Assembly (NCBI GenBank): GCA_964035545.1
Contig: OZ037772.1
Span: 4,809,733-4,873,732 of the forward strand
DNA from: Bugula neritina
Taxonomy: Eukaryota; Bryozoa; Gymnolaemata; Cheilostomatida; Bugulidae
Direction of reading: 5' to 3'
DNA: 64,000 nt
Positions 308-48,640 of this stretch are shown piece by piece. Numbering within the stretch: position 1 is the stretch's first letter; each line of letters opens with the position of its first letter. Under the pieces are notes generated by a model. The model was not told where the DNA came from and ran no database searches. It was given only the letters and a program-made list of their open reading frames with translations. The translations under genes and the position numbers were made by a program.

Positions 308-448
308 CATGTCTAATTTGGAGAATCTGGAGACTCTTGATATGTCACAGAATAACTTCAGTGAAGGACTACCTGATGTATTCACATCAATGACATCTCT
401 AAAGACATTGTATATGAAGAACTGTGAACTAGAAATGCTACCTGAGAG
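308..448 (+). CDS. Gene 1 LRR exon 1 (47 aa, two LRRs)
   Basis: The exon is 141 nt, between acceptor TTTACTATAG and donor GTTAGTG. It starts with the third base of a codon and ends after the second base (phase 2-2), so junctions with neighbouring copies read Ser. It encodes two LRRs with variable cores LETLDMSQNN and LKTLYMKNCELEML. Both flanks are of type a (upstream ATGTTTCAATTACTAT, downstream GTTAGTGAAAGCAACTC). The ATG-initiated frame across the acceptor is intronic read-through, not a separate small gene. Confidence 0.8.
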
Positions 449-1235: not shown

Positions 1236-1376
1236 CATGGCTAATCTGAAGAATCTAGAGACTCTTTATATGCCATATAATAACTTCAGTGAAGGATTAC
1301 CTGATGTAGTCACATCAATGACATCTCTAAGAGAAATGAATATTAGTTTCTGTCAACTACTAACTCTACCTGAAAG
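1236..1376 (+). CDS. Gene 1 LRR exon 2 (47 aa, two LRRs)
   Basis: A 141-nt phase 2-2 cassette with acceptor TATAG and donor GTTAGTG. The variable cores are LETLYMPYNN and LREMNISFCQLLTL. The second LRR has lost the usual Met on the strand. The flanks are type b (upstream CTTCAACTGGTATATG). It follows exon 1 by 928 bp, which makes up one a-b dimer. Confidence 0.78.
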
Positions 1377-2144: not shown

Positions 2145-2285
2145 CATGTCTAATCTGGAGAATCTGGAGACTCTTGATATGTCACAGAATAACTTCAGTG
2201 AAGGATTACCTGATGTATTCACATCAATGACATCTCTAAGAGTGTTGTATATGGAGAACTGAAAACTAAAAACTCTACCTGAGAG
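2145..2285 (+). pseudogene. Gene 1 LRR exon 3 with in-frame stop
   Basis: The acceptor, donor, 141-nt length and phase are all intact, but TGA at 2260-2262 replaces the conserved Cys codon of the second LRR (TGT in sister exons). First core LETLDMSQNN. If spliced in, it truncates the protein before the Roc domain. Because the exon is symmetric, skipping it would leave the frame unchanged. It may be dead, or act as a poison exon. It lies exactly 1,837 bp after exon 1. Confidence 0.75.
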
Positions 2286-3065: not shown

Positions 3066-3206
3066 CATGTCTAATCTGAAGAATTTGGAGACTCTTCATA
3101 TGCCAGGGAATAACTTCAGTGAAGGATTACCTGATGTACTCACATCAATGACATCTCTAAGGACGATGTATATGCAGAGCTGTGAACTACCAACTCTACC
3201 TGAGAG
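3066..3206 (+). CDS. Gene 1 LRR exon 4 (47 aa, two LRRs)
   Basis: A 141-nt phase 2-2 cassette with TATAG acceptor and GTTAGTG donor. The variable cores are LETLHMPGNN and LRTMYMQSCELPTL. Type b flanks (GTTAGTGAGAATGCATC downstream). It lies 1,830 bp after exon 2, its type b counterpart. Confidence 0.8.
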
Positions 3207-3981: not shown

Positions 3982-4122
3982 CATGTCTACTCTGGAAAAT
4001 CTGGAGACTCTTGATTTGTCACAGAATAACTTCAGTGAAGGATTACCTGATGTATTCACATCAATGACATCTCTAAGAGAGTTGCATATGAAGAATTGTA
4101 AACTAGAAATGCTACCTGAGAG
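3982..4122 (+). CDS. Gene 1 LRR exon 5 (47 aa, two LRRs)
   Basis: A 141-nt phase 2-2 cassette with type a flanks, exactly 1,837 bp after exon 3. The cores are LETLDLSQNN and LRELHMKNCKLEML. Its first residues are MSTLENLE, with Thr where most copies have Asn. Confidence 0.8.
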
Positions 4123-4907: not shown

Positions 4908-5048
4908 CATGTCTAATCTGAAGAATTTGGAGACTCTTCATATGTCAGGGAATAAGTTCAGTGAAGGATTACCTGAGGTATTGACATCAATGACATCTCT
5001 AAGGACGTTGTATATGAAGAACTGTGAACTACCAACTCTACCTGAGAG
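4908..5048 (+). CDS. Gene 1 LRR exon 6 (47 aa, two LRRs)
   Basis: A 141-nt phase 2-2 cassette with type b flanks, 1,842 bp after exon 4. The cores are LETLHMSGNK and LRTLYMKNCELPTL. The downstream intron is shortened: the next exon starts only 455 bp further on and the usual SINE segment is missing. Confidence 0.8.
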
Positions 5049-5362: not shown

Positions 5363-5503
5363 CATGTCAAATCTGGAGAATCTGGAGACTCTTCATATGT
5401 CAGGGAATAACTTCAGTGAAGGATTACCTGAGGTATTCACATCAATGAAATCTCTAAGAGAGTTGGATATGAAGAATTGTAAACTAGAAATGTTACCTGA
5501 GAG
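5363..5503 (+). CDS. Gene 1 LRR exon 7 (47 aa, two LRRs; mosaic upstream flank)
   Basis: A 141-nt phase 2-2 cassette with cores LETLHMSGNN and LRELDMKNCKLEML. The upstream intron is a mosaic: type a sequence is interrupted around 5287 by a type b stretch (GAATTACATTGCTTTAGC), then type a resumes before the acceptor. The shortened spacing to exon 6 and the mosaic point to unequal recombination. Confidence 0.78.
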
Positions 5504-6287: not shown

Positions 6288-6428
6288 CATGTCTGATCTG
6301 AAGAATCTGGAGACTCTTAAAATGTCAGAGAATAACTTCAGTGAAGGATTACCTGATGTATTCACATCAATGGCATCTCTAAGGAGGTTGTATATGCAGA
6401 TCTGTAAATTACCAACTCTACCTGAGGG
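6288..6428 (+). CDS. Gene 1 LRR exon 8 (47 aa, two LRRs)
   Basis: A 141-nt phase 2-2 cassette with type b flanks and cores LETLKMSENN and LRRLYMQICKLPTL. The last two exon bases are GG instead of AG, so the junction residue is Gly rather than Ser when joined to the next exon. This is the last cassette before the Roc-COR exon; the 3.8-kb intron between them is filled by a MITE and a LINE. Confidence 0.78.
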
Positions 6429-7651: not shown

Positions 7652-9900
7652 TGTGCAAGAATACATGGATGCTTCGAAAATTTAACCAATGGAACTTACT
7701 GGATTACATAATTATCAGGCAAAGGAATTTGAGTGAGGTTTTAGATACTTGAGCTGTAAGAAGAGCAGATTGTGGCACATATTATGTGATGCTAAAGTAA
7801 AAAATAAGGATTTAAAGAAAACACATTGCAAGAAAGACACAATTAAACTAAGCACTGTCATGCTGAAAGATCCAGAAAAAACAGAACAACTTAAAAAGAA
7901 ATTGAATAAGAATATAAAGTGTTGAGATGAAAATAATAATGAGATAGAGCAAATGTGGAAAATTTTGAGAACAGTGTTTTCAACTGATAGTGAAGTGGTT
8001 GAGAAGCAAGGCCGTAATAATCAGGATAGCTTAATGAGCATGATAAACTGCTACAACAGTTGATTGAGAAGAGAAACAAGGCAAGACAAGCTTTCTTCCA
8101 GTGTAATACCAGAGTGAAGAAAAGAGCTGCTTAAAAGCACAGAGCAGTCTTCAGAGGTATACCAGAGAAATGAAAAGTAACTGGTGGGAAGAAGAAGCAA
8201 TAGAACTCCAAATGACAGCAGACAGGAGGGACATGAAAGCATTATATTTAGGCTCAAAAGAAGCTTATGATCTGAAATCAAGAGTAATGATTCATCTCCG
8301 AGACCATAATGGACAAACAGTTTTACAAGAGAAGGGAAAAATATTAGAAAAATATCTGATCACTTCAATCAATTGCTTAACATACCAGGCGAGCTGGATA
8401 AAGCAGCAAAAAACATAGTGCAAAAGTCGCCTGTTGCATTTTTGGATGGTTCTCCCAATATGGATGAGCTCGTGTCAGCAAATAGCTCAACACAGGATGG
8501 AAAAGCTGTTGGCAGAAATGGTATTCTATCTTTGGTATGAAAGCATGGTGGTCAAAAAATGACAGGTGGTCTTTACAATACAGATTTTGTTGGACACCGA
8601 GACAGTACCACCAGACTGGACGGAAGCAAGCATTGTCCAATTTTTAAGAAAGGCGAAAGGAAAGTAAACAGGAATTATTGGGCATAATCTTGTATCTATT
8701 GTAGACAAGATTTCCTCTTGCATACTATCGGCTAAATGCATATACTACCCAAGAGGTGCTACTGGAGTCTCAGTGTGAATTCAGGAGTGGAAAGAAGCGC
8801 AAGTGTAAGAGAGGTGCAGAAAACATAATATGCTACTGTCCACAGCATTTTTTGACCCTAGTAAAGCATTTGATATTGTATATATTGCAAGCCTTTGGCA
8901 GGTTCTTAAAAGGTTTGACTGTACAGACAAGTTTATTTACATCAAGGAAGCTCTTCATACAGGCATGCAAGCAAATGTGGCAGTGGGCAGTTCCATCTCA
9001 AATAATTTTGCAGTAACAAATGGAGTCAAACAAAGGTGTTTCCTTGCACTAACACTTTTCTCACTCTACCGGTCAGCAATGCTTGAGGTTGCGTTCAAAG
9101 ACAGCTCCGAAGGAGTATCATAAAAACTAGAAAAGAGGCAGATCTTGTTGACGTTGCTCATGTCAAGTCAAAATTTAAAACCACTACTGAGTGAGTAAAA
9201 GATTTGCTATTTGCTAGTGATAGTACTTTAGTTGCTCTTCATTCTTATGCTATACAGACTCCAGTCAACAGATTTGCCAATGCTGCAAAATATTATAATC
9301 TCAAAATTATCATCAAGAAGACAGAATGCCTCTACCAGCTTGCAAATTTTGAAAATGCAGGTGTACCGTGCTACGTTACTCGCTGCCTTACTGTATGGTG
9401 TTGAGACTTAGAACATACACAGTGTGCTAGTAGACAGACTGCAAGCGTATGTCATGCAATATCTATGCTCAATCATGGGTGTCTTTTAGAAGGACAAGAT
9501 TACTAACCAAGAAGTATTAAAGAGAGCTAGCTTAGCATCTCTAAAATCTATCCTTATTCAAATGAACTTGAGATAGCTAGGACATCTCGAGACGACAGAT
9601 CATGGCCATTTATGTTAACAAATTCTCTATTCGCAGCTGAAAAAAAGTACACAAAGCCAAGGAAGGCCAAGATTTAGATTTAAAGACACTGTAAAGCGAA
9701 ATATAAAAAAGTTGGACATGTACAGAGATAGCTGGCAAAGGAAGGGTTAATGTAGATATGGATGGAGACGTTTGATCAAACTAAATTGAAAAGAGTCATT
9801 GTCGCACCGACAGACTGCTCTGATGACGACAGTGATGGTGATGATGATAATGATGATGATAATGAAGATGATGATAATGATGATATTGATTCTCATTATT
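7652..9900 (+). mobile_element. Decayed non-LTR retrotransposon (endonuclease end plus reverse transcriptase)
   Basis: Broken frames match the common invertebrate endonuclease-reverse transcriptase LINE type. At 7655-7752 the end of the endonuclease is visible (NTWM, then LLDYIIIRQR). RT fragments occur at 8830-9123 (DPSKAFDIVYIASLW, then AVTNGVKQRCFLALTLFSLY). At 9200-9340 there is a degraded LLFASDSTLVA box, where intact elements have FADD, and KKTECLYQ. A C-terminal fragment appears around 9390-9800. Many stops and frameshifts show it is dead. It lies in the sense direction inside the last long intron of gene 1. Confidence 0.8.
9826..9890 (+). repeat. GAT-rich microsatellite
   Basis: A run of GAT/AAT triplets at the 3' end of the LINE remnant. 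In the LINE frame it would read as an acidic Asp/Asn tail. It probably grew from the element's own sequence. Confidence 0.8.
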
Positions 9901-10248
9901 ACTTTTGTTGTTATTTTAAGATCATAAAAAAATAGATATTTAATTTGTTTTAAAAAACAGTTAGGTTTGATGTATCATATTATATTTCATGATATTTTGC
10001 TGTATTTAGTTTGCTTCCAAGCGATGCTGAAAAATTTCTACAGTAAAACAGTTGCATAGAGTTGAGGTTTTTTAAATGACGTGTTTAAGAAAAATTCCCC
10101 GTGATGAGTTTGCAGACATCTTTGCAAATGCGTTATCGTCTGAAATAGGTGAAATATATTTTTTTAAAGATCTTCAAAAGCTATATTCAGAAGCGACTTG
10201 TTTGTTAGAATCTGACTTATTATATATCATATTTTATCTGAATTACAG

Positions 10249-12170
10249 TTTGCAGTATTTGGAGAATCTGGAAGTTCTGAACATTGGGCACAACAACATG
10301 ACTATAATTCCAGAGGCTGTCTGCAACTTGAAAAAATTATACAGACTAGAAGTTTCTGGATGCAAAGCTCTAACCACTCCCCCTTATGAAGTCTGTACAC
10401 AAGGATTATCAGCTATCAGACAATACTACAAAGATCTGGCAAAAGGTAAAGGTGAAAGTCTTCCCCTAGTCACCATTGCCGTGATTGGTCACACAATGGC
10501 AGGGAAAACGAGTCTCATCAGAACATTGCAGAGTGAAGAGCGAAAGCGAGTGCTGACAAATCGTGGACCTGAGTTTGAAGTTGACGAAACAACTAAAGTC
10601 TTTAAAGTTGAAGAGTTAAAAGTAAATAACACAGTTCTGAGACTAATAGACCTGGGAGGACAGCCAGTGTATCACATGACATACCAGCTAACACTTAAAC
10701 AAAACTGCATGCCGATAGTAGTGGTGAACATGGAGCACTATGATCTGCTGGCAAAGGAGAAAGGAGACAGAGAGGCTGTGAGAAGACTGGCTTTTGATTG
10801 GCTGGCTCATTTATATGTGGCAAATCCTGGAATTAGACAACCGAAACTGGTTTTTACTCACAAAGACAAGTTTGAAGAGGAGAATTTCACAAAGCTGACT
10901 TCTAATTTCACCAACACAGCTGATCTACTAAAAGATGAAATCATCAGAGAAGAGAAACAACTAGACCAAAGCATAGCAGAGATAGAACATTTCCATCAAC
11001 ACAAAGAGCTGTTCCTGCGTAAGGATATCTACTCAGTTGGGAAAGAAGATACTTATCAAATTTTTGAGAATATGAAATCTGCCATCTTTAATTCAGCTCA
11101 AAAATTTGTAAAAGTGTTGCCAAAACTATGGGAAGATGTGAATGAGAAGATTTTAGGATTGCAGACAGCATTCAGTACATTTGATGAAATACTTCATGCA
11201 GTGCAGCAAGTAGGTAGAGGTATCACACCTGATCAACTCACCACGATCCTCACCTACATGCATGATTGTGGTAAGATCTTGTGGTACAAAGATATCAAGG
11301 AGTTGAACTTGATTATTTTTCACAAAATTGCGAAAGTTACTGAGCTACTCAAAGTCTTGTTTCAGCATGATGAAAATGTGTGGCAGATTCGGCAAACAAG
11401 TTTCAAACCACAGCTTCTGACTAACGGAGCTTTTCTTGAGGAAGAACAGTTTGAGAAATTTGTAGGAGATTTCTTGTCAGCAGGAATCATGGAGAGCCAA
11501 CTTCTAGAACATTTAATCAAAGCTGAGACAGCATTCTTTGATGAAAATGCATACCTACTTGCTGTCACTTTGCTGCAGAAATTCAGCATTCTCTACGGAC
11601 CAGCTGATCTGGAATCAAGGAGCTGCTTCATTGTTCCCTTCTACTCTCCTGATTACTTAGAGAACAATCTTACTACTGATGAAGACATCATTCTCCATGC
11701 TGAGATCATGTTCAAAGGTTTCTCAATTCCACAATATGTCTACCAGCAGATGAGTGTTGTTGTCCTACAAATGTTCCCGGATGAAACAAGTGTTTCCCTT
11801 GTTAGAAAAAACGGAGTAAAGGTTTTCCACGATGACATCTCAGTGCGCCTTGTCCATGATGGTCTCTCAAGAAAGGCAGATGTAACAGTGTCTGGAGCAA
11901 CAGAGAAAATCACAGATTGTTGGAAACACATGGTCAGCATAACCAGGCAAATATCCAAGGAGATTCGGCGTTCATGGCCTGCCAGCAGAATGGTACACAA
12001 GTCTAGTTGTACACACTGCATTCTGAAAGATGACTCCAGTCCTGAGTTTCAGGTTACTCCCAGCTGGTGTCTTGACTTTCAAACTGAGAAGCCATATCAA
12101 CAGTTTCAGAGGAAGACGGTGACAGTTTTCTGTAGAGGGGAGAAGATTTTGAGCCCACTTGTTCACCCCT
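10249..12170 (+). CDS. Gene 1 exon: last LRR pair, Roc GTPase and COR domains
   Basis: The acceptor TGAATTACAG at 10248 gives phase 2 entry, matching the LRR cassettes (AG+T, Ser). The first ~50 residues are a more conserved LRR pair (LENLEVLNIGHNN), followed by PPYEV and QGLSAIRQYY, a linker typical of ROCO proteins. Roc motifs are P-loop GHTMAGKT (10487-10510), DLGGQ (10649-10663) and THKD (10856-10867). The COR region follows, from about 11110 to the end. The donor GTAAGT at 12171 leaves phase 1. ROCO proteins are GTPases in which COR mediates dimerisation. The reading frame is open back to 10076, but that upstream part is more likely intron; an alternative first exon there cannot be excluded. 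Confidence 0.88.
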
Positions 12171-12263
12171 GTAAGTCAGTAATAAGTAGTTTTGTAATGT
12201 TTCAATTGCAATACTAGTTACCTGTTACCAACACTGAGAACATGTCTGCTGTTGCTATTTCAG

Positions 12264-12353
12264 GCACCCCTTTGACAAGCCAAGATACTCAACGACTTAA
12301 AAACACCATTGCAGAACTGAGAGAAAAAAAACAAGGGAAAAGCTTCAAAACTG
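12264..12353 (+). CDS. Gene 1 exon: linker after COR, GC donor
   Basis: The acceptor is GCTATTTCAG at 12263. The exon enters in phase 1 and encodes about 30 residues starting CTPLTSQDTQRLKN, a basic helical stretch. It ends at a non-canonical GC donor, TG|GCAAGTC. The GCAAGT context is the usual one for GC-AG introns. No domain is recognised. A GT-type donor giving a coherent frame was not seen nearby. Confidence 0.6.
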
Positions 12354-12611
12354 GCAAGTCACCATTGTTATTTAACATCTAGTAAATTCTTTCCTCATTT
12401 AGTATGTTGATGTATAACAAATATATATATGTCAAGTTTGTTGTTGTTGCAATACCAAAAACATTTTAAAACAAAAAAAACTAGGGCAAGGTGACCGATG
12501 CAAAAGTTATTGCAGGAAAAAATACTAGAAATCTAAGTGTCTGCATTTATACATTTTTATTCTATCAGCATATTATTTTAATAAAACAATATGATTATAT
12601 TCACAATATAG

Positions 12612-12796
12612 AAACTGTCAAATCACATCAGCAAACCACAACCACCTCTGTGGAAGATGAGCTGAGTGATCTCTCTGATGATGATGAATATATTCTACCT
12701 CCACCATCTGCTGTTGACAAAATAAAACATCTTAAGCAAGTCCCTGTCTTTACAACTAAACAAAGTATAAAAGAGCTCTTTTCAAACACTGAGAAG
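12612..12796 (+). CDS. Gene 1 exon: acidic linker before the caspase domain
   Basis: The acceptor CACAATATAG at 12611 enters in phase 1 and the donor GTAATG at 12797 leaves in phase 0. It encodes about 62 residues: a Ser/Thr/Gln-rich start, an acidic cluster EDELSDLSDDDEY, a PPP turn, then a Lys-rich helix. The acidic Asp cluster lies between COR and caspase, a plausible place for proteolytic release of the caspase; that is inference. Confidence 0.7.
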
Positions 12797-12993
12797 GTAA
12801 TGTAACAGCTTTACGTACAACTCTATGGAAAGCCTTCAGCATTGCTCAAAAATACATGTATAGTAGTAATTTAAAAATATTTGTACTATTTTTATTTCAC
12901 AATTATAAAAAAAAGTGTGTTATTAGTATTAACTTCCTAGCGTGCCTGTGTTATGCTCTAAGGGTATGTATGAACCTTATGTATTCCAATTAG

Positions 12994-13158
12994 GTGTTTG
13001 GTATGACAATGCCAAGAGGAACCGCTTTGATAATCAACAATGAAAAGATAACCAATAGCTCAGACAGACCAGGTTCTCAAGTTGATGTTCAAAATCTGAG
13101 TGACATGCTACGATCCTTTCAGTTCAATATTGAGATGAAAACAGATCTCACAGCTGAG
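12994..13158 (+). CDS. Gene 1 exon: start of caspase p20
   Basis: The acceptor CCAATTAG at 12993 and the weak donor GTGGCA at 13159 are both in phase 0. The 55 residues begin VFGMTMPRGTALIINNEK. They contain RPGSQVDVQNL, which matches the caspase motif Arg-x-Gly-Ser/Thr-x-x-Asp. This Arg forms part of the S1 pocket and selects Asp in substrates. The chain then runs through a helix and FNIEMKTDLT, as in caspase p20 subunits. This marks a true caspase rather than a metacaspase or paracaspase. Confidence 0.85.
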
Positions 13159-13420
13159 GTGGCAGTTATGACCAATTTTGTTGTTTCTTTTAATTAATTT
13201 TAAGCTATATAATCACAAGTGTTGTTATAAAGCAAATTTGACTCAGATATAATATAAGAGCTGAGTTTAAATCTTTTGATTTCTAATAATTTATAAGTTA
13301 AAAGTTACAATTGTGCTTCTCATTTGCTTTTATATACTGTTAACCGTCTGAATTGTTTTACAAAAGCTCACAACTTTTACACAAATATACTCATTATTTC
13401 CAATTTTTTTAAACAAACAG

Positions 13421-13640
13421 GAATTATACCAAACGGTTAAAGCAGAAATTAACAACAGCAGAAATGCTGACCACGGAATGTTCTTTCTGTTCATTGGTTC
13501 TCATGGAGTTGAGAATCATGTGTATGGATCAGATGGAGAGTTGGTAAAACTGACAGACCTGTATGACCTGCTATCTGTTCCTCAGAATCCAGTGGTTGCT
13601 GATAAGCCTAAACTGGTTGTCATCCAAGCTTGCAGCATTG
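13421..13640 (+). CDS. Gene 1 exon: caspase p20 catalytic His and Cys
   Basis: The acceptor AAACAAACAG at 13420 enters in phase 0 and the donor GTGAGT at 13641 leaves in phase 1. The catalytic His is in GSHG (His codon 13502-13504) and the catalytic Cys in KLVVIQACSI (Cys codon 13631-13633). Classical caspases read QACRG at this site; here Arg-Gly is replaced by Ser-Ile. Spacing between the two catalytic residues is normal for the family. Both catalytic residues are retained, so the protease is predicted to be active. Confidence 0.88.
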
Positions 13641-13758
13641 GTGAGTATTCTATAACCTGCATCTTACTATAAGCCAATGTATTACAGCATCAAAAGTACC
13701 TCTACCAATCAAATACAATATATGAATCATTTAGATCTACCTAAATCTAAAAAAACAG

Positions 13759-13875
13759 AACACCCTGGTGCTGAGACTGCTACACCTTCAGTTTCTGTTG
13801 CTAGTACCAGAGACAGAAGTCTGCTGGAGAGACGTCATGGTGAAAATTTATATGTTATGAAAGCTAGCTTTCCGT
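13759..13875 (+). CDS. Gene 1 exon: caspase inter-subunit linker and start of p10
   Basis: This acceptor (AAAAACAG at 13758) is chosen because it is the one nearby that restores phase 1. The upstream TTACAG at 13687 would give the wrong frame and an early stop. The exon reads EHPGAETATPSV, then a Ser/Arg-rich stretch with ASTRDR, then GENLYVMKASFP. The last part matches the caspase strand leading to the p10 substrate loop. The ASTRD site might be cut during processing. The polypyrimidine tract is poor, so the exon start is less certain than its end. Confidence 0.65.
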
Positions 13876-14085
13876 GTGAGTAAAAAATTCTCTTTTTTGG
13901 ATTAGTGTGTTCTCTGTAGATATTTGCTTTTACATCTAAACATAAAATTGTTCTGTATGTGCTAACTTTTTCACAAATAACCAAAATATTGCATTCCAGT
14001 TTATGTCAGTTAGTAGAGCAATATCCACGTTATTGACTATAGCTCTTCAAGTACTAAAAGTTCAGCTTTGTTGTATGTTATATAG

Positions 14086-14195
14086 CTTATAGTGCCTGGA
14101 GATTTTCTGACTGTGGATCTCTATTCATCAGATGCTTTGTCAGAACCATGTACCGACATGCCTGTCATAGAGACATGCATGAGATCTACAAAATT
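14086..14195 (+). CDS. Gene 1 exon: caspase p10 substrate-binding segment
   Basis: The acceptor GTTATATAG at 14085 and the donor GTGAGTG at 14196 enclose a segment reading YSAWRFSDCGSLFIRCF. It matches the caspase p10 signature (Tyr-x-x-Trp-Arg followed by Gly-Ser-x-Phe-Ile). The Arg contributes to the S1 and S3 pockets. Phase 1 in and phase 0 out agree with the neighbours. The frame lacks an ATG and is short, so only the splicing logic reveals it. Confidence 0.8.
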
Positions 14196-14454
14196 GTGAG
14201 TGTGCTACATTCCATCTGATATAATATAGTAACATATAGCTTCTTTCAAAACTTGTTAATGTATTCTGTGTCTCATCTCTTTTGTTTTCATAACGTGAAA
14301 GACCATAGTAATTAAGTGAAAATAACTCAGAACAAAATAGAAACACTTATTATGTTGACTTTCTCATGCTGAATTTATTTCTAAATTATGTTTCAACTTA
14401 CATTTAAGTCTAAGCAATTTTTTTGTGGTGACATGTTGCATTATTTTTATGTAG

Positions 14455-14805
14455 GTACAAAATCGGGTTAGAAAATTTTGTACGGAGAAAAGACTTCCTC
14501 TTGGACAACTACCAGTTGCTATAGACACTCTGACACACCATAGAAAACTCTACCTGTTTCCAGGATATGATGGAAGTTCTGGTCGAGAGAAGGAGCTGAG
14601 TTTACTTCAACTCAGGAAGAGATGCCAACATCCTCCATCCAAGCCGCTTCTGTCCAGTCTAGCTGCACAGTCCACACTGTCAGAGTCAGCTAGCACTTCA
14701 CAGCAGGCAGAGAGTGGGCAAGGCAGCAAATCAAATAACCAGAAGAGAAAATTAGACTTCAGCAAGGATAGCATCCAAATTATAAAACACAAAAAAATTG
14801 AGTGA
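14455..14805 (+). CDS. Gene 1 last exon: end of caspase p10 and basic tail
   Basis: The acceptor TTTTTATGTAG at 14454 is in phase 0. It begins VQNRVRKFCTEKRL and continues to HHRKLYLFPG, the terminal strand of caspase p10. A roughly 60-residue Ser/Gln-rich tail follows, containing QKRKLDF, which resembles a nuclear localisation signal, and ending in KHKKIE before TGA at 14803-14805. An AATAAA overlaps the stop (14805-14810); it is too close to be trusted as the polyadenylation signal. Confidence 0.85.
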   Translation, partial: VQNRVRKFCTEKRLPLGQLPVAIDTLTHHRKLYLFPGYDGSSGREKELSLLQLRKRCQHPPSKPLLSSLAAQSTLSESASTSQQAESGQGSKSNNQKRKLDFSKDSIQIIKHKKIE

Positions 14806-24136: not shown

Positions 24137-25099
24137 TTAGTTGATTCCTATAGGTCGAATAACTCTGTGAGAACGTGTACCTATTCTTAAAATGTTTCTC
24201 ACATGATCAATGTATTTTGGATGAAAATAAATAAACATGAAAACATTCACAATCCCATACAATGAAAACAGACTTGCACTGACTGTCTCTAATACAACAG
24301 CTAATTTTGCAAGAAAACTAAAACTCTGACAAATGAGAAATACGACACCGAGCGAAAAATGAAGTTGATAAAGCAGATAACTCCATATAATATATTTACT
24401 GGCTGATATCACCAACTCATCTCCTGGTAAATTTCTTTGAGCCATTAGCTTCAGTTTTTTCCATACTTTGACAAGGAAAAAAGATGTAATGAATGACAGA
24501 GCTAGGAGCTCGAGTGCATACAAGATATACACTACACTGTATCCCCTCTCTCTTGACACAACTTGTATTGCTATCGCAGTCCAACAGAATTCTACTGTTG
24601 GTATCATATTAAGTGCAAAACAGTTTAACACTCCTAGAAGATAAATTGTTCCAGTCATAGACTTTATATTGTTAATGAAAAGGTGTGTGCCATATCTGTA
24701 TGGGTGACACACTCCAATATATTTCTCAACGCTTGAAACTAGAAACACAAGAACTCTTGAAAAGGTTCCACATGCGATTATAGAAATTAGAAGTTTTGAA
24801 ACCCAATAAGCTGCTTGTACACCGAGCTGTAAAACAATTTCTTTAAGTTTACAACTGAAGAACACAGCATCCGAAATGCTGTATGTTATGTCAGATAAAC
24901 CGATGTTTACCAAAACCCAGAAAAATTTGGTTCTCTTAAGTTCTTTCATTCGGTTGAGTATAATGAGATGCAAGACATTGACAATAATAGAGAGGCAGTT
25001 TATTCCATCATTAATCTGTACAAATGAGTGGTAACACTTCTCTGTCTCATTGTGACATGGTAAAATCTCGTCATATGATGAGGTGTTGTTTCCTTCCAT
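24137..25099 (-). CDS. Rhodopsin-like G protein-coupled receptor, single exon
   Basis: The 320-residue protein has seven hydrophobic segments at roughly residues 33-53, 60-82, 92-118, 146-166, 185-208, 233-258 and 265-292. The extracellular N terminus has an N-glycosylation site (NNTS) and Cys residues. Cys in FFSCKL before helix 3 and in VEFCW of loop 2 could form the usual disulfide. The DRY box is EKY (VEKYIGVCHPYRY). The helix 7 NPxxY is degenerate (NVFMFIYFHP). The ligand is unknown; divergence suggests an orphan invertebrate receptor. The ATG at 25097-25099 is the first in frame. It lies opposite to, and between, the LRR genes. Confidence 0.8.
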   Translation of the reverse strand: MEGNNTSSYDEILPCHNETEKCYHSFVQINDGINCLSIIVNVLHLIILNRMKELKRTKFFWVLVNIGLSDITYSISDAVFFSCKLKEIVLQLGVQAAYWVSKLLISIIACGTFSRVLVFLVSSVEKYIGVCHPYRYGTHLFINNIKSMTGTIYLLGVLNCFALNMIPTVEFCWTAIAIQVVSRERGYSVVYILYALELLALSFITSFFLVKVWKKLKLMAQRNLPGDELVISASKYIIWSYLLYQLHFSLGVVFLICQSFSFLAKLAVVLETVSASLFSLYGIVNVFMFIYFHPKYIDHVRNILRIGTRSHRVIRPIGIN

Positions 25100-25174
25100 T
25101 TTCTATAGCAAGAGAAAATATATAATTAGTAAATCCACAAAATGATATGTATATACAAACTAACTATATATTCT

Positions 25175-38624: not shown

Positions 38625-38765
38625 CATGCCTAATCTGAAGAATCTGGAGACTCTTGATATGTCAAGTAATAAGTTCAGTGATGGATTACCGGATGTAGTC
38701 ACATCAATGACATCTCTTAAGGAGTTGATTATCAGTTTCTGTGAGCTACCAAATCTACCTGAAAG
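38625..38765 (+). CDS. Gene 2 LRR exon A (47 aa, two LRRs)
   Basis: A 141-nt phase 2-2 cassette with TATAG acceptor and GTTAGTA donor. The cores are LETLDMSSNK and LKELIISFCELPNL. The first LRR has SDG instead of SEG. It is the first cassette after the N-terminal exon. Flanking introns are more diverged than those in the later part of the array, suggesting an older copy. Confidence 0.8.
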
Positions 38766-39370
38766 GTTAGTAAAACCAACTGAATATGAAATACAAATAA
38801 ACTGTTTTTATCTAGGGTTTTGCATAAATGTATTTTTCTAGACTCATATTTTTTGGTTGCTAAATATCTTGTGAAAATCTCTCAAGTTTCTTGCAATTTT
38901 TTGCAATATTATAACATAAATATGCAGATAAATATATGCTAATAAAGCAATGGTATGTATAAAATTATAACATGTGGCTAAATAGAATATATTATATGTG
39001 GGAAACGTTACAACATTTTAATTTTATATGCTTGAAATGAGTAAATTAGGTAAATTATAAGTTGACCTTATTAGCCTTTTCTTGAAAAATAAAAAGCATA
39101 AGTTTCAATATGTAATATCCTGTAGACTAAAATCATACTTTGATCTGCCAATATAATGTATATAACTGATATTTAAATAAGTCATACTGTCTTTTGCTAT
39201 ACTATAAGCAGTAATAAACTTTAATGAACGTGTTATAAACAATTAATCTGTATTTTGAAGCATAAAACAAAAGTGAATTATTTTAGCAAATTACCTGTAG
39301 CTATATATGTTAGATGTTAGATGGTTGTACTATACTATTTCATGTCTCAACTAGTATATGTTTACTATAG

Positions 39371-39511
39371 CATGTCTAATCTGAAGAATCTGGAGACTCT
39401 CGATACGTCAGGGAATAGGTTCAGGGAAGGGTTTCCTGAGGTATTAGCATCAATTACATCTTTAAGAAAGTTGGATATGCTTTACTGTGCGCTACCAACT
39501 CTACCTGAAAG
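39371..39511 (+). CDS. Gene 2 LRR exon B (47 aa, two LRRs)
   Basis: A 141-nt phase 2-2 cassette with cores LETLDTSGNR and LRKLDMLYCALPTL. It has unusual changes (Thr for the strand Met, GFPEVLASITS) and diverged introns. Confidence 0.78.
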
Positions 39512-40349
39512 GTTAGTAACAGCAACAAATATATATATAAAAGAAAAACAAACCAACTGAATATGAAATACAAATAAACTGTTTATCTAAGATTTTGAAT
39601 GCCTGCATTTTTCTAGACTCATATTTTTTGTTGCTAAATATTTTGTGACAATTTCTCAAAACTGTTAAAAATCTTGCTATAGTTACTATTACATAAAATG
39701 CACAACTAAGTGTACAATAATAAAGATATGCTATCTATAATATTATAAAATGTGGTTAACTGAATTTATATAATATATTGGAAACTTTACAATATTTTAA
39801 TTTCGTATCCTTGAAACGGGTAAAAGCTAGCAAGTTGAGTTGATTGGTTTTCCTTCATAGATAATAAAAAGCTCACGCTTCAATATGTAATATCATGCAG
39901 ACTAAAATCAGACTTTGATCTGGCAATATAATGTATAATTCATATTTAATTGAGTCATACAGTCATACAGTTATAAATTTTTTTGTTATGCTCTAAGCTT
40001 TAATATACTTTAAAGATTTAGAAACAATTATTTTGTATTTTGAAGTATGAAACAAAAATGGATTGTTTTCAAAAACTGCCAGTGATGATAGAAAACATTA
40101 TTATATATACTAATAAAATGTAAATTGTATAATTTGTATTCAGCTTAAGGTGTTGAAAAGAAGAACTCATGCAGTATATTTCACACACATATGTGAGAGT
40201 TATATCTAATAATGTTTTTTATTCCAACTTCATTCTCTATTGGATAAGATTTACCTATCAATAAAAAGATTTATGCTGAAATTACATTTATTTTACTTTA
40301 GATGGTTGTATTACTGTATGATGTCTCAACTGGTATATTTTTACTATAG

Positions 40350-40490
40350 CATGTCTAATCTAAAGAATTTGGAGACTCTTAATATGTCGGAGAATAACTT
40401 CAGTGAAGGATTACCTGATGTATTCACATCAATGACATCTCTAAGAGAGTTGCATATGAAGAACTGTAAACTAGAAACTCTACCTGAGAG
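40350..40490 (+). CDS. Gene 2 LRR exon C (47 aa, two LRRs)
   Basis: A 141-nt phase 2-2 cassette with cores LETLNMSENN and LRELHMKNCKLETL. The upstream flank is type b-like and the downstream flank type a, so the exon is a recombination junction. A MITE lies in the following intron. Confidence 0.8.
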
Positions 40491-40857
40491 GTTAGTGAAA
40501 GCAACTCAATATGAAATACAAATAAAATGTTTTTATCTGTAGTACACGACATCCAGGATTTGCCCCCAGTTCTTTAAACTTGAATTTTTTGCTGCCAAAC
40601 AATGTCTGAAAATTTTTCCAACCTGTTAAATTAGTCTTCCTATTTTGTATATAATGTGCAAACAAATATAGGCCAATAAAAAGAGTCTATGTAATATTAT
40701 GACATGTGGTTATAGATTATATAAGATATGTTACATTATTTTAGTTTCCTATAATGCTTGAATCAGGTAAAAGTTAAGGAGTGAGGTTCAGTATATAGTT
40801 TTTGTCTTGAAAAGATATACAGCTTAAGCTCTATTATATAATTTACTTGCAGACTAA

Positions 40858-41303
40858 AGTTGCGTTTATACCTTCACGATCTCGGTCAAAATTTCAATTT
40901 GGCCGGGTTGAAATTTTTCCGAGTTGCATTGCATTGTAAAAGCCACTTGTTGAAAATTTTGCACTGTGATAACGTAATCGGCCAATTTTAGAATAGGAGT
41001 AATAACTCCTTGTAAACATCGTTATTTAGTTATTACTTTGGCGATTAGACAACATACTTATACGGTTATGATTATATAGCCTACGCCTTCTCAATTATCG
41101 CTTTTAAGCTTTCCGCTTCACTAATTCACGACATTTACAAAGGGCATCAAATAGCTATTATGCGAGTCAAATTTCAATTTCAGAAAGTGAGCAACCGCAT
41201 CAATATAATTTCAACGAGTTTAAGTTTGACTATAAAGGGGTACCCGGAAAAGCGTTATTAACTTAAACTCGTTACTTTTTTCAGCAGAGGTATAAATGCA
41301 ACT
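40858..41303. mobile_element. 446-bp MITE with TAA target duplication
   Basis: The ends AGTTGCGTTTATACCT and AGGTATAAATGCAACT form a terminal inverted repeat with one mismatch. TAA flanks both sides (40855-40857 and 41304-41306). Sister units of the array carry the empty site, GACTAAAACTAGCC, with one TAA. A 3-bp TWA-type duplication is characteristic of PIF/Harbinger elements. The interior has no coding frame. Confidence 0.85.
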
Positions 41304-41699
41304 TAAAACTAGCCATTGATCTGACAACATAACGTATAGCCTAATTGATATCTAAATTATACAGTTTTTTTATATACAATAAAAATATTCAATTTGACAA
41401 TCTTCAAATTTTATAGTAAAACAAAAACAAATTGTTTTAGCAAGTCACCTGTAATTATCAAAAAAAAATTTTAATTGGTGAGTAAAATTTAAATTGCACA
41501 TTTTATGTTTTACTCAGTTTTGTACAATAAACTCATGCTGCATGCAGTACATATTTCACATTCATATGTAATATCTACTGTTTATCTACTAATGTATTTT
41601 AATCCAACTTAATTTTCCATTCGATAAAATTTAAATACCAATCGACAATTTTGTGCTAGAATTACATTGCTTTAGCTTAAGATAGTTGTATTATTAAAT

Positions 41700-41795
41700 G
41701 ATGCCTCAAATTTAGTAAGGAATTATACCTGATGTAGTCGAGGGGTATTGGGTATTGGATATCAATTACTGTGAACTACCAATTCTACCTGAGAG
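41700..41795 (+). pseudogene. Gene 2 LRR exon D, remnant
   Basis: Only the second LRR is recognisable (INYCELPILPER) up to an intact donor GTTTGTA. The acceptor and most of the first LRR are gone; the sequence jumps from the upstream intron (GATGCCTCAA) into ACCTGATGTAGTC. It is probably not spliced. Confidence 0.7.
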
Positions 41796-42095
41796 GTTTG
41801 TAAAAGCAACAATTTTATTTAATACAAATAAACTGTTTCTATCTGGGATTTTGCATAGCTGTATTTTTCTAGATTTAAATTTTTTGCTGCTTGATTTCTT
41901 GAAAAGAAGAACTCATGCACTATATTTCACACACATTTGGGAGATTTATATCTCATAATGTCTTTTATTCCAACTTCATTTTCCATTGAATGAAATTTAT
42001 ATATCAATAAAAAACTTACAGCTGGAATTAGATTTCCTTTGCTTTAAATGGTTTTATTACTATATGATGTCTCAACTGGTTTATGTTTACTATAG

Positions 42096-42236
42096 CATGT
42101 CTAATCTGAAGAATCTGGAGTTTCTTGATATGTCACAGAATAAGTTCAGTGATGGAGTACCTGATGTATTCACATCAATGACATCTCTAAGAGAGCTAGA
42201 TATGAGAAGCTGTGCACTGCCAACTCTACCTGAGAG
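42096..42236 (+). CDS. Gene 2 LRR exon E (47 aa, two LRRs)
   Basis: A 141-nt phase 2-2 cassette with TATAG acceptor and GTTTGTA donor (shared with remnant D). The cores are LEFLDMSQNK and LRELDMRSCALPTL. Confidence 0.8.
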
Positions 42237-43127
42237 GTTTGTAAAAGCAACAATCATAGGGAATACAAATTAACTGTTTCTATCTGGGATTTTGCAGGCT
42301 TGCCTTTGTTTAGACTTGCCAAATACTTTGTGAAAATTTCTCAAATCTATTAGGTACAAAAGCAACAATTATATGAAATACAAACAAACTGTTTCTATCT
42401 AGGGTTTTTAATGCCTGCCTTTATCTAGACTTGTCAAATACTTTGTGAGAATTTCTCAAGTGTATTAGGTACAAAATCTTGCCATAATTATTACATAAAA
42501 TAGGCATATAAATATACGCTAATAAAGACATGTTATGTATAATAATTATTATAACACATGTGGTTAAATAGAATATATTATTAATAGGAAACTTTACAAT
42601 GTTCTAATTTCCCATGCTTGAAACCAGTAAAAGTTAGTAAGTTGAGTAGTTATTAGCTTTTTCTTGAAAAAATATACTGTCTCTGCTTTATTATGTAATA
42701 TTCTGCAAACTACAGTGTGGCTTTGATCTTCCAATATAATATATAATTCATATTTAAATAAGGCATACAGTCTTTTTTTATACCTCAAGCAGTAATAAAC
42801 TTTCAAGTTTTAGAAACAAATAATCTGTATTTTGAAATATCAAACAAAAATGTATTATTTTCAAAAACTACCAATAACGATAGAAGATATAATTATATAT
42901 ACAAATATAATGTGAATTTCATAACTTGTATTCTGCTTAAAGTGTTAAAAGAAGAACTCATACATGCAGTATATTTCACACACATATGTGAAATTCATAT
43001 CTAACAATGTTTTTTATTCCAACTTTATTTTCCATTAGATGAAATTTATATATCAATAAGAAACTTTCCTTTGCTTCAGATGGTTTCATTACCATATGAT
43101 GTCTCAACTGGTATGTGTTTACAATAG

Positions 43128-43268
43128 CATGTCTAATCTGAAGAATCTGGAGACTCTTGATATGTCATGGAATAAATTCAGTGATGAATTACCTGATGTA
43201 TTCACATCAATGACATCTCTAAGGACGTTGTATATGCAGAACTGTGAACTACCAACTCTACATGAGAG
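43128..43268 (+). CDS. Gene 2 LRR exon F (47 aa, two LRRs)
   Basis: A 141-nt phase 2-2 cassette; the acceptor is ACAATAG. The cores are LETLDMSWNK and LRTLYMQNCELPTL. The conserved LPE near the end reads LHE, and SEG reads SDE. Confidence 0.78.
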
Positions 43269-44058
43269 GTTAGTGAAAGCAACTAAATATGAAACACACA
43301 TAAAATGTTTTTATCTGTAGTACACGACATCCAGGATTTGTCCGCATTTCTTTATACTTAAATTCTTTGCTGGCAAATAATTTCTGAAAATTTTTTTCAA
43401 ACCTGTGAAATTATTCTTGCTATATTGTATACAATATGCAAATAAATACAAGCCAATAATAAGATTCAATGTAGTATTATGACATATGGTTCTAGAATAT
43501 ATAAAAATGTTACAAATTTCAGTTTCCTATATTCCTTAACCCTTGAATTAAGTAAAAGTTAATGAGTTGTGTTCAGTATATAGTTTTTTTAAAAGATATA
43601 CAGCTTAAGCTCTATTATATAATATACTTGCAGACTAAAACTAGCCATTGATCTGACAACATATTGTATAATTGATATCAAAATTACACAGTTTTTTATT
43701 GAATGCAATAAAAATTGTTAATTTGATAATCTTTAAATTTTAAAGTATAACAAAAACAAATTATTTTAGCAAATCACTTGTAATTATCGAAAAGAAATTA
43801 TTTTATATGTGAATAAAACTTTAGTTGTACATCTGATGCTTTACTCAGTTTTGAAAATTAAGAGCTCATGCTGCAGTACATGTTTCACATGCATATGTAA
43901 TATCTACTGTTTATCTACTAATGTATTTTATTCTAACTTCATTTTCAATCGAATGAAATCTGTATGTCAATCGGCAATTTTATGCTAGAATTAAATTGCT
44001 TTAGCTTAAGATGGTTGTGTTACTATATGATGTCTCAACTGGTATATGTTTACTATAG

Positions 44059-44199
44059 CATGTCTAATATGGAGAATCTGGAGACTCTTGATATGTCAGT
44101 GAATAACTTCAGGGAAGGATTACCTGATGTATTCACATCAATGAAATCTCTAAGGACGTTGAATATGCAGAACTGTAAACTAACAACTCTACCTGAGAG
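44059..44199 (+). CDS. Gene 2 LRR exon G (47 aa, two LRRs)
   Basis: A 141-nt phase 2-2 cassette with type b flanks and a SINE copy downstream. The cores are LETLDMSVNN and LRTLNMQNCKLTTL. Confidence 0.8.
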
Positions 44200-44963
44200 G
44201 TTAGTGAGAATGCATTAAATAAAATGTTCATTAGTGTGAAGGATACAGTTATGCGAATAAAATTACTCATTTTTTATTAAAAGTATCTACAGGTTTTGAA
44301 GTTTTACCTTTTTACAAACTTGTTGCATTTCTCAAGTGCAATATATTAGGTTCACAGTAGAATCACAAATACCAGCTGTGTTACATACTTCCCATTGAAA
44401 GTCAACCACCGGCTTGCCAGCTGACGTTCTAGCCATTACACTCCAAGGGTAATCCTAACACTCCATGCAACCAGTTATTCTAAACTCTGTTGGTCCCCTT
44501 ACTACTCATTCAGTTTAGGCTTCCCGGCCTCTCAACTCTCTTGGCGTACTACCAAAATGCTATACTAAATGTGAAAGAGCTTGCTAACAATTACACACGG
44601 GTCACCAGGTGATCTCAACACCACACTAAGCTGTTCACGTGTGCATTCAGTTTCCTGCTACCACAAAGCTATTCACCTGCACTAACTGTCATGATGTAAG
44701 AACTTCAATTACAGGAGGTTGTAATTCTACATACCCCTCCTTTCAAATGGAAGGACATCACAATTACTAGACTTTAAATTATTATAAGCGCATTACAGAG
44801 ATTACTTGATTAGCATGTGAATAAAGTCTTATTTGTATCTTTTATGCTTCACTTGGTCTAATATATGAGCTGCACACTTGTATGACACAGTAGATGTGCA
44901 CAGCCATAATCTACTACCGTATTACTAAATGATGTTTCAATTACTATATTATGTTTACTATAG

Positions 44964-45104
44964 CATGTCTAATCTGGAGAATCTGGAGACCCTTGATATG
45001 TCAGGGAATAACTTCAGTAAAGGATTACCTGATGTATTCGCATCAATGACATCTCTAAGAGAGTTGCATATGAAGAGTTGTGAACTACCAACTCTACCTG
45101 AGAG
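44964..45104 (+). CDS. Gene 2 LRR exon H (47 aa, two LRRs)
   Basis: A 141-nt phase 2-2 cassette with type a flanks that closely resemble those of gene 1 exon 1. The cores are LETLDMSGNN and LRELHMKSCELPTL. Confidence 0.8.
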
Positions 45105-45890
45105 GTTAGTGAAAACAACTCAATATGAAATGCAAATAAACTATTTTTCCTGTAATACACGACATCCAGGATTTGCCCGCATTTCTTTATACCTAAATTT
45201 TTTGCTGCCAAATAATTTCTGAAAATTCTTCAAACCTGTGAAATTATTCTTGCTATATTGTATATAATATGCAAATAAATACAAGCCAATAAAAAGAATA
45301 TATGTAGTATTATGGCATATGATTCTAGAAATATAAAAAATGTTACAATACTTTAATTTCCTATATTCCTTAACGCTCGAATTGAGTAAAAGTTAATGAA
45401 TTTAGTTCAGTATATAATTTTTTTTCAGAAGTTATACAGCTTAAGCTCTGTTATATAATATACCTGCAGGTTAAAACTAGCTATTGATCTGACAACATAA
45501 CGTATAATTGATATGTAAATTATACAGTCTTTTATTAAATGCAATAAAAATTGTTAATTTGACAATCTTTAAATTTCAAAGTATAACAAAAACAAACTAT
45601 TTAAGCAAATCACTTGTAATTATTGAAATGAATTGCTTTTATATGTGAATAAAACTTGAGTTGTACATCTGATGTTTCACTAAGTTTTAAAAAAAGCTCA
45701 TGCTGCAGTACATGTTTCACATGCATATGTAATATCTACTGTATATCTACTAATGTATTTTATTCTAACTTCATTTTCAATCGAATAAAGTCTGTATGTC
45801 AATAGGCAATTTCATGCTAGAATTACATTGCTTTAGCTTAAGATGGTTGTATTACTATATGATGTCTCAACTGGTATATGTTTACTATAG

Positions 45891-46031
45891 CATGTCTAAT
45901 CTGAAGAATTTGGAGACTCTTCGTATGTCAGGGAATAAGTTCAGTGAAGGATTACCTGATGTATTCACATCAATGACATCTCTAAGAGAGTTGAATATGC
46001 GGTACTGTGTGCTACCAACTCTACCTGAGAG
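45891..46031 (+). CDS. Gene 2 LRR exon I (47 aa, two LRRs; b/a chimera)
   Basis: A 141-nt phase 2-2 cassette with cores LETLRMSGNK and LRELNMRYCVLPTL. The upstream flank is type b, the downstream flank type a, so the switch happened within or beside the exon. Confidence 0.8.
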
Positions 46032-46825
46032 GTTAGTGAAAGCAACCCAATATGAGATACAAACAAGAATTTTTTATCTGTAGTACACGACATCCAGGAT
46101 TTGTCCGCATTTCTTTATACTTAAATTTTTTGCTGCCAAATAATTTCTGAAAATTTTTCAAAACCTCTTAAATTATTCTTGCTATATTGTAAATAATATG
46201 CAAATAAGTAGAAGCCAATAAAAAGATTCTATGTAGTATTATGACATATGATTCTAGAATATATAAAACATGTTACAATACTTCAATTTCCTATATTCCT
46301 CAACGCTTGAATTGAGTAAAAGTTGATGAGTTAAGTTCAGTATATAGTTTTTTTCTTGAAAAGATATACAGCTTTAGCTCTATTATATAATATACCTGCA
46401 GACTAAAACTAGCCATTGATCTGACAACATAATGTATAATTGATATTTAAATTATACAGTCTTTTATTAAATACAATAAAATTGGTTACTTGACAATCTT
46501 CAAATTTTAAAGTATAACAAAAACAATTTATTTTGGCAAATCACCTGTAATTATCGAAAAAAAATGATTTTATATGTAAATAAAATTTTAGTTGTACATC
46601 TGATGCTTTACTCAGTTTTAAAAAAAAGCTCATGCTGCAGTACATGTTTCACATGCATATGTAATATCTACGGTTTATCTACTAGTAATGTATTTTATTC
46701 CAACTTCATTTTCAATCGAATGAAATCTGTATGTCAATCGGCAATTTTATGCTAGAATTAAATTGCTTTAGCTTAAGATGGTTGTGTTACTATATGATGC
46801 TTTAACTGGTATATGTTTACTATAG

Positions 46826-46966
46826 CATGTCTAATCTGAAGAATCTAGAGACTCTTTATATGTCACAGAATAAGTTCAGTGAAGGATTACCTGATGTATT
46901 CACATCAATGACATCTCTAACTACATTGTATATGCAGATCTGTGAACTACCAACTTTACCTGAGAG
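46826..46966 (+). CDS. Gene 2 LRR exon J (47 aa, two LRRs)
   Basis: A 141-nt phase 2-2 cassette in a short frame. Acceptor TTTACTATAG, donor GTTAGTG. The cores are LETLYMSQNK and LTTLYMQICELPTL. Type b on both sides. Found from its splice sites and similarity to sister exons. Confidence 0.8.
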
Positions 46967-47729
46967 GTTAGTGAGAATGCATTAAATGAAATGTTCATAA
47001 GTGTGAAGGATATAGTTCTTTAATAGAAGTATTTTTTTTTAATAAAATAATCTACAGTTTTTAAAGTTCTACAGTTTTACAAACCTTTTGCATTTCTTAA
47101 GTGCAATATATTAGGTTCACAGTAGAATCACAAGTATCAACTGTGTTTCATACTTCCCATTGAAAGTCAACCATCAGCTTGCCAACTGACGCACTAACCA
47201 TTACACTACAAGGGTAATCCTAACACTCCATGCAACCAGTTATTCTAAACTCTATTGGTCCCCTTACTACTCATTCAGTTTAGGCTTCCCGGGCCTCTCA
47301 ACTCTCTTGGCGTACTACCAAAATGCTATACTAAATGTGAAAGAGCTTGCTAACAATTACACACGGGTCACCAGGTGATCTCAACACCCCACTAAGCTGT
47401 CCACATGTGCATTCAGCTCCCTGCTACCATAAAGCTATTCACCTGCACTAACCGTCATGATGTATAAACTTCAATTACAGGCGGTTGTAATTTTACATGC
47501 CCCTCCTTTCAAATGGAAGGACATCACAATTACTAGACATCAAATTATTATAAGCGCATTACAGAGATTACTTGATTAGCATGTGAATAAAATCTTAGTT
47601 GTATATTTTATGCTTCACTTGGTCTAATATATGAGCTACACACTTGTATGACACAGTAGATGTGCACAGCCATATTCTACTACCATATTACTAAATGATG
47701 TTTCAATTACTATATTATGTTTACTATAG

Positions 47730-47870
47730 CATGTCTAATCTGGAGAATCTGGAGACTCTTGATATGTCATGGAATAACTTCAGTGAAGGATTACCGAATG
47801 TATTCACATCAATGACATCTCTAAGAGAGTTGCATATGAAGAGTTGTGAACTATCAACTCTACCTGAGAG
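47730..47870 (+). CDS. Gene 2 LRR exon K (47 aa, two LRRs; a/b chimera)
   Basis: A 141-nt phase 2-2 cassette with a GTGAGTG donor, stronger than the usual GTTAGTG. The cores are LETLDMSWNN and LRELHMKSCELSTL. The upstream flank is type a, the downstream type b, the reciprocal arrangement of exon I. Confidence 0.8.
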
Positions 47871-48640
47871 GTGAGTGAGAATGCATTAAATAAAAAGTTC
47901 ATTAGTGTGGAGGATATAGTTCTGCAGTAGAAGTACCTATTTTTCATTCAAATTATCTACAGGTTTTAAAGTTCTACAGTTTTACAAATTTTCTCCATTT
48001 CTTAAGTGCAATATATCAGATTCACAGTAGAATCACAAGTCCCAACTGTGTTACAAACTTCCAATTGAGTCAATAAGTCAACCACCGGCTTGCCAGCTGA
48101 CGTTCTAGCCATTACACTACAAGTGTAATCCTAACACTCCATGCAACCAGTTCTTCTAAACTCCGCTGGTCCCCTTACTACTCATTCAGTTTAGACTTCC
48201 CGGGCCTCTCAACTCTCTTGGCGTACTACCAAAATGCTATACAAAATGTGAAAGAGCTTGCTAACAATTACACATGAGTCACTTGGTAATCTCAACACCA
48301 CACTAAGGGATTCACATGTGCATTCAGCTCCCTGCTACCATAAAGCTATTCACCTGCACTAACCGTCATGATGTAAGAACTGCATTTACAGGAGGTTGTA
48401 ATTCTACATGCACCTACTTTCAAATGGAAAGACGTCACAATTACTAGACATCAAATTATTATAAGCGCATGACAGATATTACTTGATTAACATGTGAATA
48501 AAATCTTATTTGTATATTTTATGTTTCACTTGGTCTAATACATGAGCTGCACACTTGTATGACACAGCAGAGGTGCACAGCCAACATCTACTACAATATT
48601 ACCTAATGATGTTTCAGTTAGTATATTATGTTTACTATAG

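Follow-up and report, generated by a model that had tools for sequence, protein, structure and literature searches.

The gene described here lies on the plus strand, at positions 10249-14805, of a 64,000-nucleotide stretch of the Bugula neritina (Bryozoa) genome (assembly GCA_964035545.1, contig OZ037772.1, positions 4,809,733 to 4,873,732 of the forward strand), which we call the window. It is predicted to encode a single chain that runs from leucine-rich repeats (LRRs) through a Roc-COR GTPase and an acidic linker to a caspase, in the order LRR–Roc–COR–acidic linker–caspase. The order comes from exons joined from the genomic letters: eight of them, spanning 10249-14805, agree in every phase, give 1060 residues and end in a TGA stop at 14805. 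The open frame around the Roc exon extends over 10076-12217; in the model, the exon itself follows an acceptor that precedes 10249 and ends at the GTAAGT donor of 12171. The seven exons downstream have AG acceptors, and the donors there are GT save for one GC donor at 12354. A sequence-only reading of this DNA had seen Roc motifs and a COR-like region followed, in phase, by caspase p20 and p10, and the eight-exon model and the domain matches confirm what it saw. The features of the model are these.

10249..12170, plus strand: large exon with the last LRR, the Roc GTPase and COR-A/COR-B (open frame, splice signals, domain and structure matches)
10487..10510, plus strand: Roc P-loop, GHTMAGKT
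10649..10663, plus strand: Roc switch II, DLGGQ
10856..10867, plus strand: Roc G4 motif, THKD
12264..12353, plus strand: linker exon, first part, with the GC donor
12612..12796, plus strand: linker exon, second part, acidic
12665..12679, plus strand: conserved linker motif SDLSD (S[DE][LIVC]S[DE])
12994..13158, plus strand: first caspase p20 exon; S1-pocket Arg codon at 13066-13068
13421..13640, plus strand: second caspase p20 exon; catalytic His codon at 13502-13504, catalytic Cys codon at 13631-13633 (QACSI)
13735..13875, plus strand: intersubunit linker and start of p10
14086..14195, plus strand: caspase p10 exon with SAWR
14455..14805, plus strand: last exon, with the end of p10, a basic C-terminal tail and the TGA stop

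The tail after p10 (14740-14802) is rich in Lys and Arg (QKRKLDF, KHKK) and is possibly a nuclear localisation signal.

The two halves of the predicted protein

Profile searches with Roc, COR and Peptidase_C14, which the earlier reading had proposed as a check, came out strong for Peptidase_C14 (1.8e-33, 116.6 bits against a cutoff of 21.4, with p20 and p10 both present) and just above the cutoff for Roc (5.5e-6, 27.1 bits against 27.0, in the joined 1060 residues), with COR recognised by structure only. Among solved structures, the caspase part matches caspase-1 at 7.2e-23, over both p20 and p10, and CED-3 at 2.4e-19. Aligned with caspase-1, it keeps an arginine in SSDRPGS, the histidine of GSHG, the glutamine and cysteine of QAC and a second arginine in SAWR, which we take to be the catalytic His and Cys and the Arg, Gln and Arg of the S1 pocket. 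The p20/p10 fold, the His-Cys dyad and the S1 pocket are thus those of caspase-1, -4/11, -9 and CED-3. Initiator and inflammatory caspases carry a CARD or DED prodomain, whereas the window gene has LRR-Roc-COR in its place and an active site that reads QACSI.

At the other end of the chain, the P-loop, switch II and G4 motifs by which the Roc domain of the ROCO family is recognised are all intact, and COR follows Roc directly, as it does in that family. By sequence, the top ROCO chain for the Roc-COR exon among solved structures is Chlorobium tepidum Roco (1e-9), a bacterial protein that has LRR-Roc-COR as here but no protease. The order and fold of LRR-Roc-COR match LRRK1/LRRK2 and MFHAS1, with 13-17% identity in the top structural rows; this comparison is taken from VIA-align, the Foldseek listing having mixed both domains at high root-mean-square deviation. 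In LRRK1/LRRK2 and MFHAS1, COR is followed by a kinase and further domains, or by nothing, whereas the window gene has a caspase there. Pfam finds no protein kinase domain in the joined protein, and no STAND ATPase of NACHT or NB-ARC type. A single scan of prokaryote genomes with two short patterns, which has little power, turned up no prokaryotic relatives of the Roc-COR part.

The same chain elsewhere

The genome itself offered many chances to see whether the two halves travel together. In the 216-Mb assembly, a query with the Roc-COR exon gave 266 candidates, 69 of them scored and 197 unscored, so all pair counts are lower bounds; 68 of the 69 have no internal stop. The p20 exon was found at 132 places. 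For 65 of the 69 Roc-COR exons, the same strand has a p20 exon no more than 6 kb downstream, with none upstream and none on the opposite strand; at 8 kb, the figures are 67 downstream, 1 upstream and 0 opposite. A control with shifted positions (10-40 kb, 500 rounds) paired a mean of 2.96 and a maximum of 8 of the 69, which rules out chance neighbourhood in a caspase-rich genome. A COR-A query added 22 new places, 19 of them likewise paired, for a total of at least 84 loci with Roc-COR and then caspase, the 84 pairs using 84 different p20 exons. Seen from the other side, a Roc-COR or COR-A exon is listed in the 8 kb upstream of 86 of the 132 p20 exons. An earlier count, against 150 caspase places, had paired 55/69 Roc-COR exons. 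In a hand-picked sample, 8 of 12 caspase loci had a Roc-COR frame within 4 kb, and with L004, L007 and L008 (positive) and L001 and L002 (negative, with 1.5-kb flanks) added, 11/17 did.

Between the halves lies a conserved linker exon, which is predicted to bridge them. A 53-residue linker query matched at 64 places, among them the window's own linker (E 2.6e-4), and every one has p20 downstream; 51 have a listed Roc-COR upstream, and two of the other 13 (L024 and L029) had Roc-COR by separate sampling. The motif S[DE][LIVC]S[DE] is present in the window gene and both other full copies on C8, in 10/11 sampled Roc-positive loci and in none of the six sampled caspase loci with no Roc-COR in the stretch examined (L001, L002, L006/L020, L023, L025, L026). 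It is meaningful only within the linker, since the LRRs of P0015 contain two further matches to it. A classical caspase site here would have Leu at P1', which is unfavourable, so that a phosphorylation site is an equal candidate.

Transcripts of separate genes, with a promoter and polyadenylation between 12170 and 12994, had been named as the finding that would break the chain in two, and the hexamer count lends this no support. AATAAA or ATTAAA occurs twice there (12580 and 12721) against 3.1 expected; one of these hexamers falls inside coding exon 3, and the other, which is intronic, is missing from the close 5.04-Mb copy. In the 4.88-Mb copy, the corresponding interval has three such hexamers.

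A search for the same architecture in related genomes, also proposed at the outset, found it in four predicted proteins of another bryozoan, Watersipora subatra. They were among 20 proteins matched by the full-length sequence (the best 7993 candidates scored), covering 85-93% of the query at E 4e-115 to 5e-148, with alignments that continue through the linker, where all four carry the motif. Pfam sees the caspase in 4/4 and LRRs in 3/4 (P0018 begins inside the P-loop), and the database calls two of them 'MFHAS1 homolog' and two 'uncharacterized'. Fourteen of the remaining matches are Roc-COR frames on metagenome contigs, the best with 85% identity across 61% of the query; the other two are one Owenia fusiformis protein and one metagenome LRR-Roc-COR protein. 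Exon phases, the Watersipora proteins and the 65/69 pairing together support the single chain that the sequence-only reading had proposed.

With an Owenia query, 120 of 618 matches were listed, and among these Roc, COR-A and a caspase share a chain in Lingula anatina P0024 and P0025 and in Owenia P0022, with no LRR match in any. In a 26-row Roc-COR tree, nine bryozoan-type rows separate at 100/100 on a branch that is long (3.7; the program warned of long branches meeting), and a group of Owenia and Lingula P0024 (100/99) sits among ordinary animal ROCOs. Because the bryozoan-type clade is remote and the others are nested in this way, the fusion is likely to have arisen at least twice; a single origin of all Roc-COR-caspase chains is not supported by this tree, subject to the same long-branch caveat. 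The caspase tree leaves the deeper forks unsettled.

These two animals had further combinations to show. In Owenia P0022, a single chain combines Bcl-2 (5e-23) with Roc-COR and caspase; Lingula P0024 resembles Bcl-2 by eye in its N-terminal part, with no Pfam match. Lingula P0140 has a caspase (2e-57) fused to a RIG-I-like helicase with its C-terminal domain, another receptor-caspase shortcut.

LRR exons and the history of the copies

Upstream of the Roc exon lies a series of LRR exons of one type.

308..448, plus strand: LRR exon, 141 nucleotides, phase 2-2, two repeats; AG acceptor, GTTAGT donor
1236..1376, plus strand: LRR exon, same 141-nucleotide type
2145..2285, plus strand: LRR exon copy with an in-frame stop; can be skipped with no change of frame
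3066..3206, plus strand: LRR exon, same 141-nucleotide type
3982..4122, plus strand: LRR exon, same 141-nucleotide type
4908..5048, plus strand: LRR exon, same 141-nucleotide type
5363..5503, plus strand: LRR exon, same 141-nucleotide type
6288..6428, plus strand: LRR exon, same type; the last ahead of an intron with reverse-transcriptase remnants

Counting the window together with L009, 21 of 22 LRR exon copies are free of stops. At the positions we take, from the general geometry of LRRs, to form the concave face, the ratio of nonsynonymous to synonymous change (dN/dS) is 1.21, against 0.58 elsewhere; the ratio of dN on the face to dS over all positions runs from 1.17 to 3.10 (5-95%, column bootstrap), the pooled pairs not being independent. 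A second array of LRR exons, at 38625-57654 of the window, holds 13 copies, one with a lost donor, and leads toward the ROCO-caspase gene L010, about 10 kb past the window's 3' edge.

In the rest of the chain dN/dS is low. Comparison with the copy at C8 5.04 Mb gives 0.32 for Roc-COR and 0.29 for the remainder, and comparison with a caspase-only copy at 4.902 Mb gives 0.33. Against the copy at 4.88 Mb (C8:4884196-4889000) it is 0.24 for Roc-COR and 0.17 for the caspase, the caspase total including a spurious 7-codon match for exon 2 and omitting exon 6. Because the Roc-COR dS in this last comparison is 0.33 but that of the caspase exons is about 2.2, which is saturated, the two halves point to separate histories, as though copies had traded one of them.

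A proposed receptor with GTPase and protease on one chain

The explanation we favour, with rather more conviction than doubt, is a one-chain intracellular receptor whose GTPase dimer would draw a pair of caspase domains together for mutual activation. The concave face of the LRRs, whose residues vary fastest, would bind a variable ligand, either non-self or a sign of damage. Binding would change the GTP state of a Roc-COR dimer, as proposed for other ROCO proteins: GTP-gated dimerisation has been put forward for the family in a paper that gives MFHAS1 as LRR-ROC-COR (PMC4104024). Dimerisation could then bring the C-terminal caspases of both chains close enough to act on each other, as happens in initiator caspases, with the disordered linker and its S[DE][LIVC]S[DE] motif acting as a regulated hinge, by phosphorylation or self-cleavage. 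On such a scheme ligand and GTP state would control the protease, as the sequence-only reading also supposed. The whole would amount to an inflammasome collapsed into a single molecule, likely to trigger death with no adaptor proteins.

The closest printed design is bacterial. Kaur and colleagues describe prokaryotic proteins with rapidly evolving LRRs, an AP-GTPase of Roc type and COR, and then an effector drawn from at least 24 domains, which include caspase, with several paralogues per genome and a predicted role against invaders (PMC8195603). The layout of LRR, Roc-type GTPase, COR and effector is that of the window gene, but there the effector differs between copies and is a caspase in the broad superfamily sense, whereas here a metazoan-type p20/p10 is constant and the sensor varies. 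As an analogy, the bacterial design favours an immune reading. A second account of the bacterial systems treats their AP-GTPases, and the words Roco and Roc occur only in its reference list (PMC7159879). Among animals, amphioxus has LRR-caspase and TNFR-caspase 'shortcut' proteins, in which a receptor domain is joined straight to a caspase, as here, but no GTPase switch is mentioned for them (Roc and COR are absent from the main text of PMC2575513). LRRK2 feeds the extrinsic death machinery through FADD, although by way of an adaptor in trans (PMC5823876).

The sequence-only reading knew of no standard animal family with a caspase in this place. We found no published description of an animal Roc-COR-caspase protein in titles and abstract openings of the open-licence literature; on the other side, predictions for Bryozoa, an annelid and a brachiopod were already public, the latter two with no LRRs and one Owenia chain adding Bcl-2, and the bacterial counterpart, LRR-GTPase-COR followed by a caspase effector, has been published (PMC8195603). 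The novelty lies in an animal form that ends in a metazoan-type caspase, in the scale of the family, in the conservation of the linker and in LRR exons that diversify.

Several observations weigh against the receptor as we have drawn it. No first exon and no start codon were found for the window gene, one LRR exon carries the stop noted above, and the 3.8-kb intron before the Roc exon contains reverse-transcriptase remnants. Pfam scores for LRR, COR-A and COR-B in the joined protein fall below their cutoffs. The Watersipora chains are themselves predictions, and Roc is below the Pfam cutoff in all four. Pairing is incomplete: 4/69 Roc-COR exons and 3/22 COR-A matches are unpaired at 6 kb, no Roc-COR is listed in the 8 kb upstream of 46/132 p20 exons, the copy at C8 4.902 Mb is caspase only, and L019 is a sampled Roc-positive locus with no linker motif. 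In the 4.88-Mb copy (L010, 419-2404), the P-loop reads GHTMAKKT instead of GHTMAGKT, and this copy may not bind GTP normally. An immune role, finally, is suggested by LRR variation, copy number and the bacterial parallel, and by these only.

The last point leaves some room for a death switch of normal colony life, its LRRs reading an endogenous signal. Bryozoans have such deaths, the cyclic degeneration of polypides being an example, and ROCO and caspase parts would suit any regulated death. We nevertheless think a colony-life switch unlikely, as the count of 84 loci and the rapid change at the concave face of the LRRs suit many variable ligands better than one endogenous signal, and the bacterial look-alikes are predicted to be counter-invader receptors (PMC8195603).

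More doubtful is a signalling or decoy role for the caspase part, with cleavage after Asp changed or absent. The pentapeptide QACxG is replaced by QACSI in the window gene, where caspase-1 has QACRG and the 4.88-Mb copy QACSG; in the paralogues L004, L024, L027, L028, L003, L005 and L008, the S1 Gln of QAC has become E, V or L, which suggests a changed P1 preference, and SxWR is lost in some. Because of these losses and the P-loop lysine at 4.88 Mb, not all copies need be working GTPase-caspases. In the window gene, however, His, Cys, Gln and both S1 arginines align with caspase-1 and dN/dS is low, and we read its product as a predicted caspase-domain protein with a variant active-site motif.

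That the locus is a decaying copy within a gene array is very improbable: the LRR exon with a stop, the retroelement remnants and the GC donor would fit decay, but all eight exons from the Roc exon onward are open with splice signals in phase, and pooled dN/dS is 0.17-0.33 against three copies. The least probable reading of all, a ROCO gene ending near 12171 beside a caspase gene whose start lies within or ahead of the exon at 12994, can point to the two hexamers, the caspase-only copy and an in-frame Met at the fourth codon of the p20 exon, and we reject it, as the 12170-12994 interval (hexamers below expectation, a linker exon that recurs between the halves at 51/64 places, and an open frame at 12485-12805, around the second linker exon, with no Met until its last codon), the one-sided pairing of the paralogues and the united predicted Watersipora chains all speak for a joined chain.

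The caspases of the textbooks depend on adaptors or STAND platforms to activate them in trans; in the predicted receptor, a GTPase of LRRK2 fold sits on the same chain as the caspase, a layout previously in print only for bacteria, as far as we found. Two questions thereby become testable: whether GTP cycling by Roc-COR can drive a C-terminal effector directly through dimerisation, for which caspase cleavage is a possible read-out of ROCO activation, and how intracellular threats are sensed in an animal with few matches to the usual platforms. The same genome gave 4 matches for CARD, 3 for DED, 11 for Death, 1 for NACHT and 8 for Bcl-2, and none for NB-ARC, which is weak evidence since that domain is long and the search went exon by exon; searching in this way lowers all these counts, and the contrast with 84 loci is still large. 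We are evenly divided on a broader proposal, that bryozoans have largely swapped death-fold and STAND platforms for a repertoire in which most caspases lie in cis to a ROCO GTPase. This would be an animal counterpart of the bacterial defence design, in at least 84 genes of one chain each; its sensor exons would diversify and could be shuffled, or skipped with the frame intact, and caspase halves would have been swapped between copies.

The window holds a few other features. One of the reverse-transcriptase remnants in the 3.8-kb intron is at 8809-9120 (RVT_1 3.4e-4, below cutoff), with similar sequence in the copy at 5.04 Mb. An open frame at 62086-63822 matches DUF1759 just under the cutoff, as in BEL/Pao-type elements. 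On the minus strand, a 321-residue open frame at 24137-25102, with no Pfam match, resembles a seven-helix receptor by eye.

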